This document shows positions 7,440 to 21,339 of a stretch of DNA of 64,000 nt, piece after piece. The stretch lies in the NCBI GenBank assembly GCA_036504895.1, contig DASXUJ010000024.1:1-64000 (forward strand), given 5' to 3'. Below the pieces are notes generated by a model. The model worked only from the letters and a program-made list of their open reading frames with translations, did no database searches and was not told where the DNA came from. This DNA comes from Syntrophorhabdaceae bacterium (lineage in GTDB: Bacteria; Desulfobacterota; Syntrophorhabdia; Syntrophorhabdales; Syntrophorhabdaceae). The stretch's first letter is position 1, and the number at the start of each line of letters is the position of its first letter. Position numbers and translations under genes: made by a program.

Positions 7440-8014
7440 GGTATTCCTCCTTTAGAAATTCTATCTGACCGCTGCTACTTTAGCCGCAGTTGACTCCGTG
7501 ATCAAAGCCTTATCTGAGGCGCGATTCTATTGCCTCTATATTCATGATATGTCAGATGTCGTCTCTTGTCTGTCGCAGAACCAACTGCTATTGTGTAGCG
7601 CTTTTAATACATCAGCGATAACTTACCCTTGACTTGCCTTTGGGCTCATGATTACACATCCGTTATGGAATATCGACGGCGATACTAAATCGGCTGCGCC
7701 GCGCACTTCGGATCCCTTATCGCGATACCGATTCTTGACGGAGGCACCGTATGGGACGGGTCGCTGTATCGCCGGTTGCAGTTGCAGCGCCGGCCGGCGC
7801 GATCGCCTGGTGGCCCCCATCTGGACAGGCCGCTGGAATTCGCGAAACGATACGCGGGCGCGACGCCTCATCAGCGAAGGAGGATCCCCATGAAACGATG
7901 CAATGCCGGGGCCGGATTGATTGACCCTACCCCTTTTGGTTCTCTCCATGTTGCATGGGCGATATGCTCGTCCCGGGTATTTCATGCCCCTCCTCGCCAG
8001 CCGGGGAGGTGGCA
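7440..8014. other. Gap without recognisable genes
   Basis: The right end carries the GGGGAGGT ribosome site of the nitrilase fragment. Otherwise only unsupported short frames are seen on both strands. Confidence 0.4.
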
Positions 8015-8332
8015 ATGAAAGTCGTTAAGGCCGCCGCGGTTCAACTGAGTCCCGTCCTCTATAGCCGCGAGGGAACAATCGAAAAGGTCGTGCGGAAGAT
8101 CCACGAGCTTGGCCGACAGGGGGTGCAGTTCGCCACGTTCCCGGAGACCGTGGTGCCTTACTACCCGTATTTTTCGTTTGTCCAGTCCCCCTACCAGATC
8201 ATTGTCGGACCCGAGTACCGCAAGCTGCTCGACCAGGCGGTGACAGTGCCCTCTCCTGCCACCAACGCTATCGGCGACGCGTGCAGGCAGGCGGGCGTTG
8301 TCGTCTCCATCGGCGTCAACGAGGGGGGTAAC
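8015..8332 (+). pseudogene. Nitrilase, N-terminal fragment cut by a RAYT element
   Basis: From the ATG at 8015 (GGGGAGGT just before it) the product starts MKVVKAAAVQLSPVL and contains ATFPETVVPYYPYF and VSIGVNE, the classic N-terminus of the aliphatic nitrilase family, including the catalytic Glu of FPE. These enzymes hydrolyse nitriles to acids and are normally about 320-350 aa. Here homology stops after about 105 residues, where the TGGGGTCAAATC end of a transposable element begins, and the frame then runs on for 28 foreign residues to 8416. The catalytic Lys and Cys regions are missing, and I do not find them on the far side of the element, so the rest was lost or moved. It should be inactive. 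Confidence 0.8.
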
Positions 8333-9358
8333 TGGGGTCAAATCTTTATTCTTGACATTCATCTCCTCTCCCTGATATCCTTCCCCCATGAGCCGCCCTC
8401 TTCGCATCCAGTTTAAAGATGCATATTATCATGTCACCTGCCGGGGCAATGGAAGACAGAGTGTCTTTCTGTCGGACCAGGACAGGAAGAAGTTCCTTGA
8501 CCTTCTAGAGCGCTCCCTTGACATATACCAGGTGAATCTCCTCGCCTTCGTGCTCATGACCAATCATTTCCATATGATGGTAACCACGCCGCGAGCCAAC
8601 CTTCAGGAGTTCATGCGCCATTTCACCATCTCCTATACCTCCTATTTCAATAAGAGACATCAAAGATCCGGCCATCTCTACCAGGGCCGCTACAAATCCT
8701 TTTTAATCGAGACAGACAGCTATCTTCTCGAAGTGTCACGATACCTTCACCTTAATCCCATCCGTATAAAGCAGTTCTCGGAATCCTCCTTCGAAGAGAA
8801 GAAGGCCTACCTTGATAAATACCCGTGGAGCAGCTATCGCGATTATCTCTCCTCTTCCCGGTATGATTTTCTCTCCCGTACCGATATCCTCTCCCGCTTC
8901 AGTACTCAATCATCCTATAGGGACTTTGTGGAAGAAGGCATCCAGGGTGTGGTCAATCCCTTAGAAAGAGGACAAGGACATGGGATAATAGGTACTGCGC
9001 CGTTCATTAAGGAAATTCTCAAGATGAAGATGTTGAGTTCTTCCCGCGAACAGCCTGAAGCACGGCGTATTATCAAAGAGGCGGGACCCGATGAGGTCCT
9101 GGCGATCATTGCGAAACATTTCAAAATTACCCCGGAAGAGGTGCTTGAGAAAAGACCCGCCAAAAGTGTGGCCATGGAATTTCTCTACCGCTATGCGGGC
9201 ATGAACCAGCGGGAGATCGGGGAACTCATGGGCCTGGACTACAGTTCCATAAGCGTGGCGAGGAAACGACTACGGGAAGCAGCCGTAAAAGATAAAAAAC
9301 TCCAAAGGCATATGAAGGTGATCGAGGATGGTATTTCTCAAGTAAAGATTTGACACCA
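8333..9358 (+). mobile_element. RAYT (IS200/IS605-related) element with inverted ends
   Basis: The two ends are 16-bp inverted repeats with one mismatch: TGGGGTCAAATCTTTA at 8333-8348 and its complement at 9343-9358. The element holds a single transposase gene. It interrupts a nitrilase gene. The exact outer limits are my estimate from the inverted repeats and from where nitrilase homology stops; RAYT elements do not make target duplications, so none is expected. Confidence 0.7.
8388..9353 (+). CDS. REP-associated tyrosine transposase (RAYT)
   Basis: A 321-aa single-strand DNA transposase of the Y1_Tnp/IS200-like family. It opens with MSRPLRIQFKDAYYHVTCRG, has the metal-binding HxH motif in MTNHFHMMV near residue 60, and the YQGRYKSFLIETDSYLLEVSRYLHLNPIR region (given here in parts: GHLYQGRYKSF, then RYLHLNPIR) with the likely catalytic Tyr. 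The C-terminal third carries a DnaA-like helix-turn-helix (VAMEFLYRYAGMNQREIGEL, then SSISVARKRL), a layout typical of the longer RAYT group. Its stop codon lies in the right inverted end. RAYTs move or have moved REP-type palindromes in the genome. It looks intact. Confidence 0.9.
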   Translation: MSRPLRIQFKDAYYHVTCRGNGRQSVFLSDQDRKKFLDLLERSLDIYQVNLLAFVLMTNHFHMMVTTPRANLQEFMRHFTISYTSYFNKRHQRSGHLYQGRYKSFLIETDSYLLEVSRYLHLNPIRIKQFSESSFEEKKAYLDKYPWSSYRDYLSSSRYDFLSRTDILSRFSTQSSYRDFVEEGIQGVVNPLERGQGHGIIGTAPFIKEILKMKMLSSSREQPEARRIIKEAGPDEVLAIIAKHFKITPEEVLEKRPAKSVAMEFLYRYAGMNQREIGELMGLDYSSISVARKRLREAAVKDKKLQRHMKVIEDGISQVKI

Positions 9359-10683: not shown

Positions 10684-11218
10684 CTCACTTCTCCTTTCTC
10701 ATTTTGGTGAATTTTACAGACTGCGGGGGAAAAATGCAAACATTCCTCTGACGGCATATGTGATCGTCTTCTTGGAGGTCGGGTGTGGTTCGAATCTTTA
10801 TTGATAAAGGGTTGGCCTGGATGCGTCTTTTATCCCGTTTCCGAAAATACAGGAACAGAACTGACCCCAATAACGTTCCGACCGTCTGTGTGTCCAAAAT
10901 ATTGCGGAAGGATCAGCCCCTTGACAGCGGACATAAACGGTATTAGGTCACATTTGTCTCTCTGTCAATTCTATGGGAATCAATTGTATGTGAGCTTTAT
11001 AGGGAAAGATGGGAAAGCAAATCCTATCTGGCAGATGTTGAAGGGAAATGGTGCAACTATGGCCCTTTGCCTCGTGAGCAAAATCAACAGGTCTTATAAT
11101 GATACGCAATAGGCAATGCCAAGAGCCAGGATCTTCAGGTGATACACTTCGGAGAGCACTTTCTCTCTACCGCTGCGGGACGTCCGGCACGGTAAATATC
11201 AACCAAAGGAGGAACGGT
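10684..11218. other. Gap before the DM9 protein
   Basis: No supported gene. A GAACTGACCCCAAT phrase near 10858 is like the GGGGTCA end of RAYT-type repeats read backwards. The promoter of the minus-strand pair and of the DM9 gene should lie here. AAAGGAGG at 11203-11210 is the ribosome site of the DM9 gene. Confidence 0.4.
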
Positions 11219-12013
11219 ATGAAAAAGTGGGCCTTGGTTCTTCTCATGATTTGTGTGGTGATCGGAGTGGAACACTATGCACTTGCTCAAGTTCAAACTG
11301 GCATAGACTGTCCTGTAAAAGTCAATGCAGTTGTTCAGTCGCAGGAGAAGTGGGAGCCATCCACATTCATTCGTTGCGATTTGATGGGTGCGAATATCTA
11401 TACCGCACCCAGTGGCAAACACGTGCTGAATTGCAGTTACGATTCTCACATTGCTAATTACACGCACGGCTTGTCTAAGGAAGTGCCGGTAGGTTGTTCA
11501 AACTGCATCGTAAGGACGGACAACAAAGGATTTACATGCGCGTGCACCACTCAAACACCTGTTGCACAATGGATCAGATCTTCATCCTCTGTCCCTCCAA
11601 CAAATGCCTTAGTAGGCGGCCATATCTCTGACACGCCCTATCAAGTATATATTTGCAGAGCTAATCACAATGGCAATCTTCATCCGGGTAAAACAGCTTT
11701 TTACAATGGACGCTGGAGCTGCTTTATTGGCAATGGAGGAAGAGAAGAACGATATGAAAACTACGAAATATTTGTTGCGAATTCGGCAGAATACGTTTGG
11801 TCAACAGGAGTGACAAATTCTTTGCCAACCGGTGCTGTTCAAGGTGGTCACATTTCAGATACTCCCCAGCCTGTTTATATAGGCAGAGCATATCACAATG
11901 GAAATGCCCATCCCGGCAAGGTGGCAGTTTACGACGGGCGTTGGAGCTGCTTCATAGGTAATGGTGGTAGAGAGGAACGATATGAAACGTATGAGGTCCT
12001 AGTGAAAAAATAG
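11219..12013 (+). CDS. Secreted protein with two DM9/DUF3421-like repeats
   Basis: Start at 11219 is chosen over the earlier frame opening because AAAGGAGG lies just upstream and MKKWALVLLMICVVIG begins a signal peptide ending HYALAQ. The exported part (about 240 aa) has a Cys-rich N-terminal region (about six Cys, including CSNC and CACT) and two tandem repeats of about 65-70 residues. Each repeat reads VGGHISDTP, then YIGRAYHNGN (ICRANHNGN in repeat 1), HPGKV, then GRWSCFIGNGGREERYE. This is the pattern of DM9 repeats, best known from insect and mollusc proteins that bind glycans. In bacteria they are uncommon. Likely a secreted carbohydrate-binding protein; the target is unknown. Confidence 0.8.
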   Translation: MKKWALVLLMICVVIGVEHYALAQVQTGIDCPVKVNAVVQSQEKWEPSTFIRCDLMGANIYTAPSGKHVLNCSYDSHIANYTHGLSKEVPVGCSNCIVRTDNKGFTCACTTQTPVAQWIRSSSSVPPTNALVGGHISDTPYQVYICRANHNGNLHPGKTAFYNGRWSCFIGNGGREERYENYEIFVANSAEYVWSTGVTNSLPTGAVQGGHISDTPQPVYIGRAYHNGNAHPGKVAVYDGRWSCFIGNGGREERYETYEVLVKK

Positions 12014-14741: not shown

Positions 14742-15170
14742 CTCGTTTTCTCCTTATTTCCCGAATTGAGCATAGATGTCTTCAAGTTCAGCGACGCACC
14801 TCCATAATGGGCCAATCTATTGCGAGAGCTATATATCTTTGTCTTTCCATCGGCCGAAACCGAGTCGATCCGTTTATGCCGGTCCTTTCTCAATGTAAGG
14901 CATCTTCGGCAGGACCGCAACCGGGGAAATCCCGGGCAAATTCTTTAATTGTTCACTTTCTTTCGGCCCTTGTGCGTGCGGGGCCGGATCGGGTCCGGTG
15001 GTCGAAAGAGGAGGACCAACCTGCGATCAGGTGAAGAAGGTTGGAGCCTTCAACAAGGAGATCGACTGTACTTGTTGAGTTTATTCCCTGAATATGTGAA
15101 AATATGCAGCCGGCCTCCCGATAATCACGGGACAAAGCATTCGTAGTAGAGTGTATAAGGAGTGGGTGAG
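14742..15170. other. Gap with no recognised gene
   Basis: Only unsupported short frames. The right end holds AAGGAG (15157-15162), the ribosome site of the NHLP-type peptide. The region between presumably holds divergent promoters for it and the Q/P-repeat gene. Confidence 0.4.
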
Positions 15171-15446
15171 ATGAAGAAAGACACCAAAGAGTATAGAAGA
15201 AGAATAGCGCAGGTGATCGAGAAAGCGGGCACGGATGCATCTTTTAGAAAGAGATTTCTTGCCGAGCCTAAGGCGGTACTGGAAGAGCACGGAATCATTC
15301 TTCCAGATAATTTTGAAGTGCAGGTCGTGGAGGAGACGGAAAAGTCCAAGTATATTCTGCTGCCCTACAAGCCGATAGATGCAGAAGGCGGGGCATGGTT
15401 ATGTGGGGACGACTCCTACGATGCGCCGTGCATTCGATGTAACTGA
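15171..15446 (+). CDS. NHLP-leader RiPP-like precursor peptide
   Basis: 91 aa from the ATG at 15171, with AAGGAG 8 bp upstream; the GTG at 15162 is inside that site. Residues about 10-65 look like a nitrile-hydratase-type leader (NHLP, as in TIGR03793): RIAQVIEKAGTDASFRKRFL, then EPKAVLEEHGI, LPDNFEVQVVEET and YILLPYKP. Such leaders guide modification enzymes in ribosomal peptide (RiPP) synthesis and are clipped off. The rest is a short core, DAEGGAWLCGDDSYDAPCIRCN in two parts (DAEGGAWLCGDD and SYDAPCIRCN), with three Cys (a CIRC pair at the end), the usual targets for cyclisation. No modifying enzyme or peptidase-transporter gene is near, so it is an orphan, or the enzymes act in trans. It could also be a fragment of nitrile hydratase alpha ancestry. 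Confidence 0.8.
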   Translation: MKKDTKEYRRRIAQVIEKAGTDASFRKRFLAEPKAVLEEHGIILPDNFEVQVVEETEKSKYILLPYKPIDAEGGAWLCGDDSYDAPCIRCN

Positions 15447-20154: not shown

Positions 20155-20568
20155 AGAGCAGATTAAGGCCCTTCGCTTTTTCGCCTTCCCTCTTCCCTTC
20201 CGGGGAGGGGTTGTGCCGACGGTGGATACCTTATTATTCAATATCTTGGGCGACAACGAGATTATTCACTCACCCGCAAAGCGCGACCGGCCATGCGCCT
20301 GCCAATGACCCATGTACCCGAGGTTTCGAAGAGCGCCTTGTCACGGCCATTTGTTCCTCCACGGTCTTTAATTATGGACAGATTATCATGGGGGAAAGGA
20401 ACATGGACTCGTCGTATATATGAGGGCAAATTTTTGCAAGAGGATGGCCTTCGGGAGTGCAGGACCGGACGCGGAGGCCGAACCTTCCCTCCAGGGATCG
20501 TGCCATGGCGGAAAATGGGTGAATGTGGTAAAATAAGCCCATCGCGATTGTCGCGATATTCCCTCAGC
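20155..20568. other. Gap between activator and radical SAM gene
   Basis: The radical SAM frame opens at 20293, but the extra residues look non-coding. No ribosome site is seen for any start. Nothing else is recognised. Confidence 0.4.
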
Positions 20569-21339
20569 ATGCAAGAAATTATCCGAAAAAGCCTATTATA
20601 CCGGACCGCCGTCGAGTATGGCGATTACACCATCAACCATGTGAGTGGGTGCGGCCACGGCTGCACCTATCCCTGCTATGCATTTATGATGGCGAAGCGC
20701 TTCGGCAAGGTCAAAGCCTATGACGAATGGTGCAAGCCCAAGATTGTCGGCAATGCCCTCGATCTGCTCGACAGGGAACTCCCGAGGCTTAAGCATAGGA
20801 TACGGTATGTCCACCTCTGCTTTTCCACCGATCCGTTTATGAGGGGCTATGATGAGGTGACCCGCCTTTCCCTCGAGATAATTGCCCGGTTAAATGCCAA
20901 TGGGATCAGGGTCACCACCCTGACGAAGGGACTATATCCTGCGGCGCTTTCAGACAAGGGCTTTCTCCGGAATAACGAATACGGCATAACCCTGGTTTCT
21001 CTCGCGGAAACACACCGGGAGAAATATGAGCCCTATGCCGCCTCCTGCATGGAGAGGATCGAGCGCCTCAAGGCCCTGCACGACGCGGGCCTCCGGACGT
21101 GGGTCAGCATCGAGCCTTACCCGACTCCGAATATTATCGGGCAGGACCTGACGCAATTGTTGGCCGAAATCGATTTTGTAGACAGGATCGTATTCGGACG
21201 CCTCAATTATAGTAAAGAAGTCGGTCTTTACGGCGATTCTGCCGGTTTTTACAATAGATGTGCAATGGAGGTAAGGCAATTTTGCCGCGACCACGGAATA
21301 GAAGCCTATATCAAGCGGAAAACTGCCGCGCAGAAATAA
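20569..21339 (+). CDS. SPL-like radical SAM protein with CX3CX3C motif
   Basis: About 256 aa from the ATG at 20569. It has HVSGCGHGCTYPCYAF, so the cluster cysteines are spaced CX3CX3C rather than the CX3CX2C of most radical SAM enzymes; the rest (VHLCFSTDPFMRGY, VTTLTKG, LVSLAET, WVSIEPYPTPNI) matches the spore photoproduct lyase-like COG1533 group. These use a 4Fe-4S cluster and S-adenosylmethionine to make a radical. The variant spacing seems natural for a subgroup, as other residues are intact. The start is uncertain since no ribosome site is visible. It stands alone; the substrate is unknown. Confidence 0.8.
   Translation: MQEIIRKSLLYRTAVEYGDYTINHVSGCGHGCTYPCYAFMMAKRFGKVKAYDEWCKPKIVGNALDLLDRELPRLKHRIRYVHLCFSTDPFMRGYDEVTRLSLEIIARLNANGIRVTTLTKGLYPAALSDKGFLRNNEYGITLVSLAETHREKYEPYAASCMERIERLKALHDAGLRTWVSIEPYPTPNIIGQDLTQLLAEIDFVDRIVFGRLNYSKEVGLYGDSAGFYNRCAMEVRQFCRDHGIEAYIKRKTAAQK

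Follow-up and report, generated by a model that had tools for sequence, protein, structure and literature searches.

The locus raises the question of where the enzymes are encoded that would modify the peptide specified at 15171..15446 (+ strand), an NHLP (proteusin-type) precursor gene of 91 aa plus stop with an ATG start. The window, i.e. the whole stretch of 64,000 nucleotides that was analysed, has on the other strand a Pro/Gln-rich protein without Pfam match upstream of this gene, and a TatA-like protein and a c-type cytochrome downstream of it, so that the gene stands alone. An earlier note on this DNA had described it as an orphan without local maturation genes. This holds for its surroundings, since none of the neighbours examined from ~8 to 22 kb was recognised as a maturase, transporter or peptidase, apart from a weak radical SAM protein, but it does not hold for the genome as a whole, in which a second, enzyme-linked NHLP copy is present on contig C40.

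Other features of the window include a nitrilase-like gene (7955-9353; CN_hydrolase, N-terminal part only) that ends at the start of the ORF of an IS200-like (Y1_Tnp) transposase, at 8388; the rest of the gene was not evident in the + strand frames from 9341 to ~10300. The protein at 11099-12013 has two stretches of DM9 repeat (natterin-like) and, close to its start, what looks like a signal segment.

The precursor gene in the window

A ribosome-binding site (AAGGAG, 15157..15162, + strand), read directly, lies 8 nt 5' of the ATG. The best NCBIfam model for the peptide is TIGR03793, at 64.1 bits against a cut-off of 50.9 bits, with residues 13-69 matching positions 7-63 of the 77 in the profile, so that the NHLP leader claimed in the earlier note is borne out by the HMM search it had proposed. 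The Pfam model NHase_alpha also matches the peptide (39.9 bits). The leader, which is supported by the profile match, a single-sequence model and a structural match, is taken as residues 1-72 (15171..15386, + strand), with the leader/core boundary placed putatively between residues 72 and 73. The core, residues 73-91 (15387..15443, + strand; GGAWLCGDDSYDAPCIRCN), has three Cys, one Ser and no Thr in ~19 aa. The Cys-rich tail is as had been described, with Cys78, Cys87 and Cys90 and a C-terminal CxxC (C87-I-R-C90), and all three Cys are predicted azole sites, on the basis of a motif kept in the paralog on C40. Judged by sequence comparison, the 91-aa ORF is a real NHLP-type precursor and more than a chance frame, since the paralog is 49% identical and dN is 0.34 against a saturated dS. 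Its product very probably serves as the starting material for a chemically modified peptide.

A paralog beside predicted azole-forming enzymes

The search of the whole genome with TIGR03793 gave two matches, namely the window gene, which was again above the cut-off, and a gene on C40 (27815-28087, - strand) whose peptide scores 70.3 bits; the look for other NHLP peptides in the genome that the earlier note had recommended thus yielded one. The two peptides align without gaps over 91 aa, and their tails have in common the motif G-x-W-[LM]-C-x-DD-x-YD-x-PC-xx-C-[ND]. Directly downstream of the C40 precursor, after a gap of ~290 bp, lies the gene for a 749-aa protein which matches both TIGR03882 (leader-binding partner, 135 bits) and TIGR03604 (SagD/YcaO, 297 bits) over cut-off, and the end of which is overlapped by a 454-aa SagB-type azoline dehydrogenase (TIGR03605 172 bits, cut-off 78). 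By sequence, this cyclodehydratase is akin to the cyanobactin enzymes TruD (E 1e-126), LynD (E 1e-123) and MusD. It retains CxxC pairs in its E1-like part as well as the stretches ALGEAIER and EExxMQGFFELVERDA, shares a C-terminal NP[VL]PFYL with its relative in genome G132, and is the only YcaO detected in the genome.

The proposal that the peptide is modified by enzymes encoded elsewhere is therefore most probably correct, as contig C40 carries a TOMM cyclodehydratase and a dehydrogenase next to the sister precursor, whose core and upstream element match those of the window gene. The NHLM peptidase-transporter looked for elsewhere in the genome did not turn up: a search with PF03412 gave no C39 peptidase in this genome (controls positive in 8 of 14), and a search with the G132 metalloprotease, run with no positive control alongside, gave no relative. 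The draft assembly comprises 138 contigs and 4.35 Mb (completeness 100, contamination 1.61), and the GC content is equal on the window contig and on C40 (0.548 and 0.547).

A shared upstream element

Alignment and a genome pattern search revealed a 39-nt element (GTACTTRTTGAGTTTNTTCCNTNAATATGTNANANTATG; 15068..15106, + strand) upstream of the window gene that is common to the C40 precursor. The two copies are identical at 32 of 39 positions (82%), and their flanks are unalignable, at chance level. Shuffled sequence came no closer to the element than 11-14 mismatches, and no further copy of the full element was found in the window or on C40 at up to 12 mismatches. Its 29-nt core (TACTTRTTGAGTTTNTTCCNTNAATATGT), which ends 64-73 nt before each ATG, occurs at exactly two places in the 4.35 Mb with up to 3 mismatches allowed. 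Because the synonymous sites of both genes are saturated, the conservation of this non-coding block points to constraint. A consensus promoter scan left the shared element unexplained; it probably acts as a promoter or operator, and both precursors are probably co-regulated.

Selection on leader and core

For the pair formed by the window and C40 genes, dS is 3.6 (saturated, tail included) and dN/dS is ~0.1. Within the core, pN of 0.25 and pS of 1.0 indicate purifying selection, the Cys/Asp/Tyr/Pro pattern having been kept by selection while the synonymous sites became saturated. In this one pair, with 18-19 core residues, core identity is 56% versus 48% for the leader; in the arrays of relatives, the corresponding values are 40% versus 76% (G132) and 22% versus 82% (G464). 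Hypervariable cores, which are described for the NHLP family (PMC2887384) and would be expected of its members, are thus not seen in the pair, and the conservation of the core suggests that the product serves a single specific function and is not part of a diversified arsenal.

Leader fold and mapped enzyme-contact positions

The single-sequence model of the window peptide (mean pLDDT 61; near 80 for residues 11-40) has helices at residues 5-21, 23-31 and 33-39, strands at 51-53 and 61-63, and no fourth helix. Its best fold match in the PDB is the proteusin precursor 8TB1, an NHLP (probability 1.00, E 1.5e-3), followed by the proteusin DprE2 (9CJX) and then by nitrile hydratase. As modelled, the peptide would have a nitrile-hydratase-like fold without the CxxCSC metal site, and no such motif was read in its 91 aa. 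The LXXXXL helix at the C-terminal end of the leader is absent from both peptides of this genome, the leaders of which stop after the second strand; among ten relatives aligned, five have a strict LX4L and others have hydrophobic variants. The window peptide has GG at residues 73-74, not VAGG, and the paralog has RG.

In helix 1, the window peptide carries Glu17 and Gly20 where the C40 paralog carries Ala17 and Trp20, and it alone deviates at these two near-invariant positions. The 8TB1 chain, an NMR construct of MprE7, aligns in a fixed register in which Ala14 and Trp17 of MprE7 correspond to residues 17 and 20 here. Both of these MprE7 residues contact the RRE of the YcaO enzyme (PMC12455567). 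An A14F substitution greatly lowers product formation, a quadruple mutant including W17A abolishes it, and the LXXXXL motif and helix 1 are both required for YcaO recognition (PMC12455567). The idea that the helix-1 contact positions are conserved between the paralogs was rejected, as the 8TB1 register shows the opposite. Glu17 and Gly20 are the strongest reason to doubt that the window peptide is a good substrate.

Distribution in other genomes

None of the 45 further genomes searched within the order (46 in total) has the synthetase, and an NHLP match turned up in just one of them, G030, where the tail differs. The NHLP-leader peptide of G030 (L013 1465-1779) has a very short, Cys-free tail (NDGQMLELERRR) and adjoins an M50-like gene; no YcaO was found in G030, and the peptide may be a precursor that has degenerated or is put to another use. 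Among 395 sampled genomes of the phylum, the nearest synthetases are those of G132 and G160 (43-45% identical), which adjoin NHLP arrays. The arrays beside cyclodehydratases comprise five NHLPs in G132, three in G160 and three in G464, whose enzyme is evidently homologous, so that it is usual for a single synthetase to serve several precursors.

The G132 cluster (L071 3862-12198, contig C65) contains, besides its five NHLP precursors, a fused YcaO, a SagB dehydrogenase, a radical SAM protein and a metalloprotease-like protein, which is akin to the daptide HExxH intramembrane metalloprotease (181 bits with NF041824, under the cut-off of that model). Comparable proteins adjoin NHLP genes in G030 (L013) and, by eye, in G060 (L018), and the G132 protein is a candidate leader protease for azole proteusins. 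Two NHLP peptides of G463 (L075 1414-2036) have tails with runs of Cys (SAQCCCCCTP and MQCCSCSG) and adjoin a large ORF that has, by eye, a B12-binding/radical SAM look.

No second genome with the core of our pair was found in the order (46 genomes), the phylum sample (395) or the class of G132 (63), where NHLP leaders were found. A degenerate core pattern, searched in the genomes of 84,980 species and in viral contigs, gave 16 matches on genome contigs and 8 on viral contigs, all of them judged unrelated on reading, mostly in other or antisense frames and with no NHLP leader, those from Syntrophaceae and Synechococcus included. A profile search of genome contigs with the alignment of the two peptides gave no relatives. 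Several weak matches in the phylum, on open frames of ~210-335 aa, have the appearance of genuine alpha chains of nitrile hydratase. The core thus appears private to this genome as far as the searches reach, with the proviso that cores departing from the pattern would be missed.

Proposed pathway and alternatives

Since the remote enzymes lie beside a sister gene with the same Cys tail and the same upstream control sequence, the window gene probably encodes a second substrate of one known pathway type, rather than being an orphan. We consider it likely that its product is a trans-encoded substrate of the TOMM (azole-proteusin) pathway for which C40 carries the enzymes and a first precursor, and that up to three thiazoles are probably formed from it. 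The shared element would turn on both precursors together, and the folded NHLP leader would dock on the RRE-like N-terminus of the C40 cyclodehydratase. This enzyme would convert Cys78, Cys87 and Cys90 to thiazolines in an ATP-dependent manner, and the flavin dehydrogenase would oxidise these to thiazoles. Leader removal and export, if any, may proceed via general cell proteases and transporters, which are proposed because no dedicated ones were found, or there may be no release at all. Recognition of the window peptide by the C40 cyclodehydratase is a prediction from sequence, with the adjacency of the paralog and the shared element for it and E17/G20 against it; the location of the two loci on different contigs of the 138-contig draft, the absence of the LXXXXL motif from both peptides and the failure to find a leader peptidase or exporter also count against the two-substrate reading. 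The thiazole tail, with its conserved Cys-thiazole/Asp-Asp/Tyr-Asp pattern, might even stay on the folded nitrile-hydratase-like domain, giving a small modified protein, e.g. a metal-binding or redox carrier, and not a released antibiotic-like peptide. We judge this improbable; it agrees with the conservation of the core and with the lack of both leader peptidases and a recognition helix.

That only the window peptide departs at E17 and G20, the YcaO contact residues in MprE7, could also mean that it is a duplicate which has drifted from the C40 synthetase and is either handled by a different enzyme or unmodified, e.g. a decoy or regulator which the enzyme would bind but convert poorly. Such drift seems rather unlikely, as purifying selection has preserved the DD-YD-P frame and all three Cys of the core, the upstream element is retained, and the genome has neither another detected YcaO nor a linked alternative maturase that we could find. 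As for the radical SAM protein ~5 kb downstream (20293-21339), to which the earlier note had drawn a speculative link, its proximity is the one point in favour of its maturing the window peptide, together with the fact that some NHLPs have radical SAM maturases, as in the G132 cluster. We regard this as exceedingly improbable: the protein scores 26.8 bits with Pfam Radical_SAM, below the cut-off of 29.5, its nearest NCBIfam models (Rv2578c/PA0069-like) match far below their cut-offs, and it matches no RiPP-maturase model. Unrelated genes for TatA, a cytochrome, an FAD oxidoreductase and a sigma-54 activator lie in between, and the partners of the paralog are YcaO and SagB.

The match to NHase_alpha, together with a consensus scan that gave no terminator and a weak promoter-like match, would be compatible with the window ORF being a non-working remnant, either a decaying relic or a fragment of a nitrile hydratase. 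This is nonetheless very unlikely, given that TIGR03793 is the best NCBIfam match and above its cut-off, that the CxxCSC metal motif is missing, that the ORF is intact and preceded by a ribosome-binding site, and that both the low dN/dS of the pair and the conserved upstream element speak for a maintained gene.

Comparison with known systems

NHLP precursors distant from TOMM genes were reported in Microscilla marina, Methylobacterium and Bacillus anthracis/cereus by Haft et al. 2010 (PMC2887384), so that a scattered arrangement of precursor and enzymes is already known; what is new is the shortened leader, together with a conserved core that appears private to this genome. As in the NHLP-TOMM clusters of Haft, Basu and Mitchell (2010, PMC2887384), a TIGR03793 leader, a TIGR03882 fused cyclodehydratase and a TIGR03605 dehydrogenase are found in one genome, whereas here no C39-type exporter was found in the genome, a VAGG-type leader end is not apparent, and the core is conserved between the copies instead of hypervariable. 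The azole proteusins of the MprE1-10/MprC/MprD system (PMC12455567; 8TB1) likewise combine a folded NHLP leader, a YcaO with RRE and flavin dehydrogenase, and several precursors per synthetase, but the LXXXXL helix is missing in both peptides here and the window peptide differs at the Ala14 and Trp17 contacts of MprE7. Nostatin A (NstC/NstD; PMC11583998) is also an azole-containing proteusin made from a YcaO-processed NHLP, although the NstC core is long, Ser/Thr rich and carries many other modifications, compared with ~19 aa and three Cys here. Closest within the phylum are G132, G160 and G464, which have the nearest synthetases found and NHLP precursors adjacent to them, in tandem arrays with variable short cores and mostly LX4L-type helices, while the precursors here are scattered; the radical SAM protein and the daptide-type HExxH metalloprotease that the G132 cluster has in addition were not found at our locus.

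An apparent orphan thereby becomes a testable two-substrate pathway, with one synthetase, two scattered and probably co-regulated precursors, and one conserved core that was not found in other species. The two precursors offer a natural experiment on what YcaO recognition of a folded leader really demands, since neither leader has the LXXXXL helix and they differ from each other in the mapped contact helix. A fixed physiological role is hinted at by the conservation of the core, in contrast to the diversity that is usual for cores of this class.
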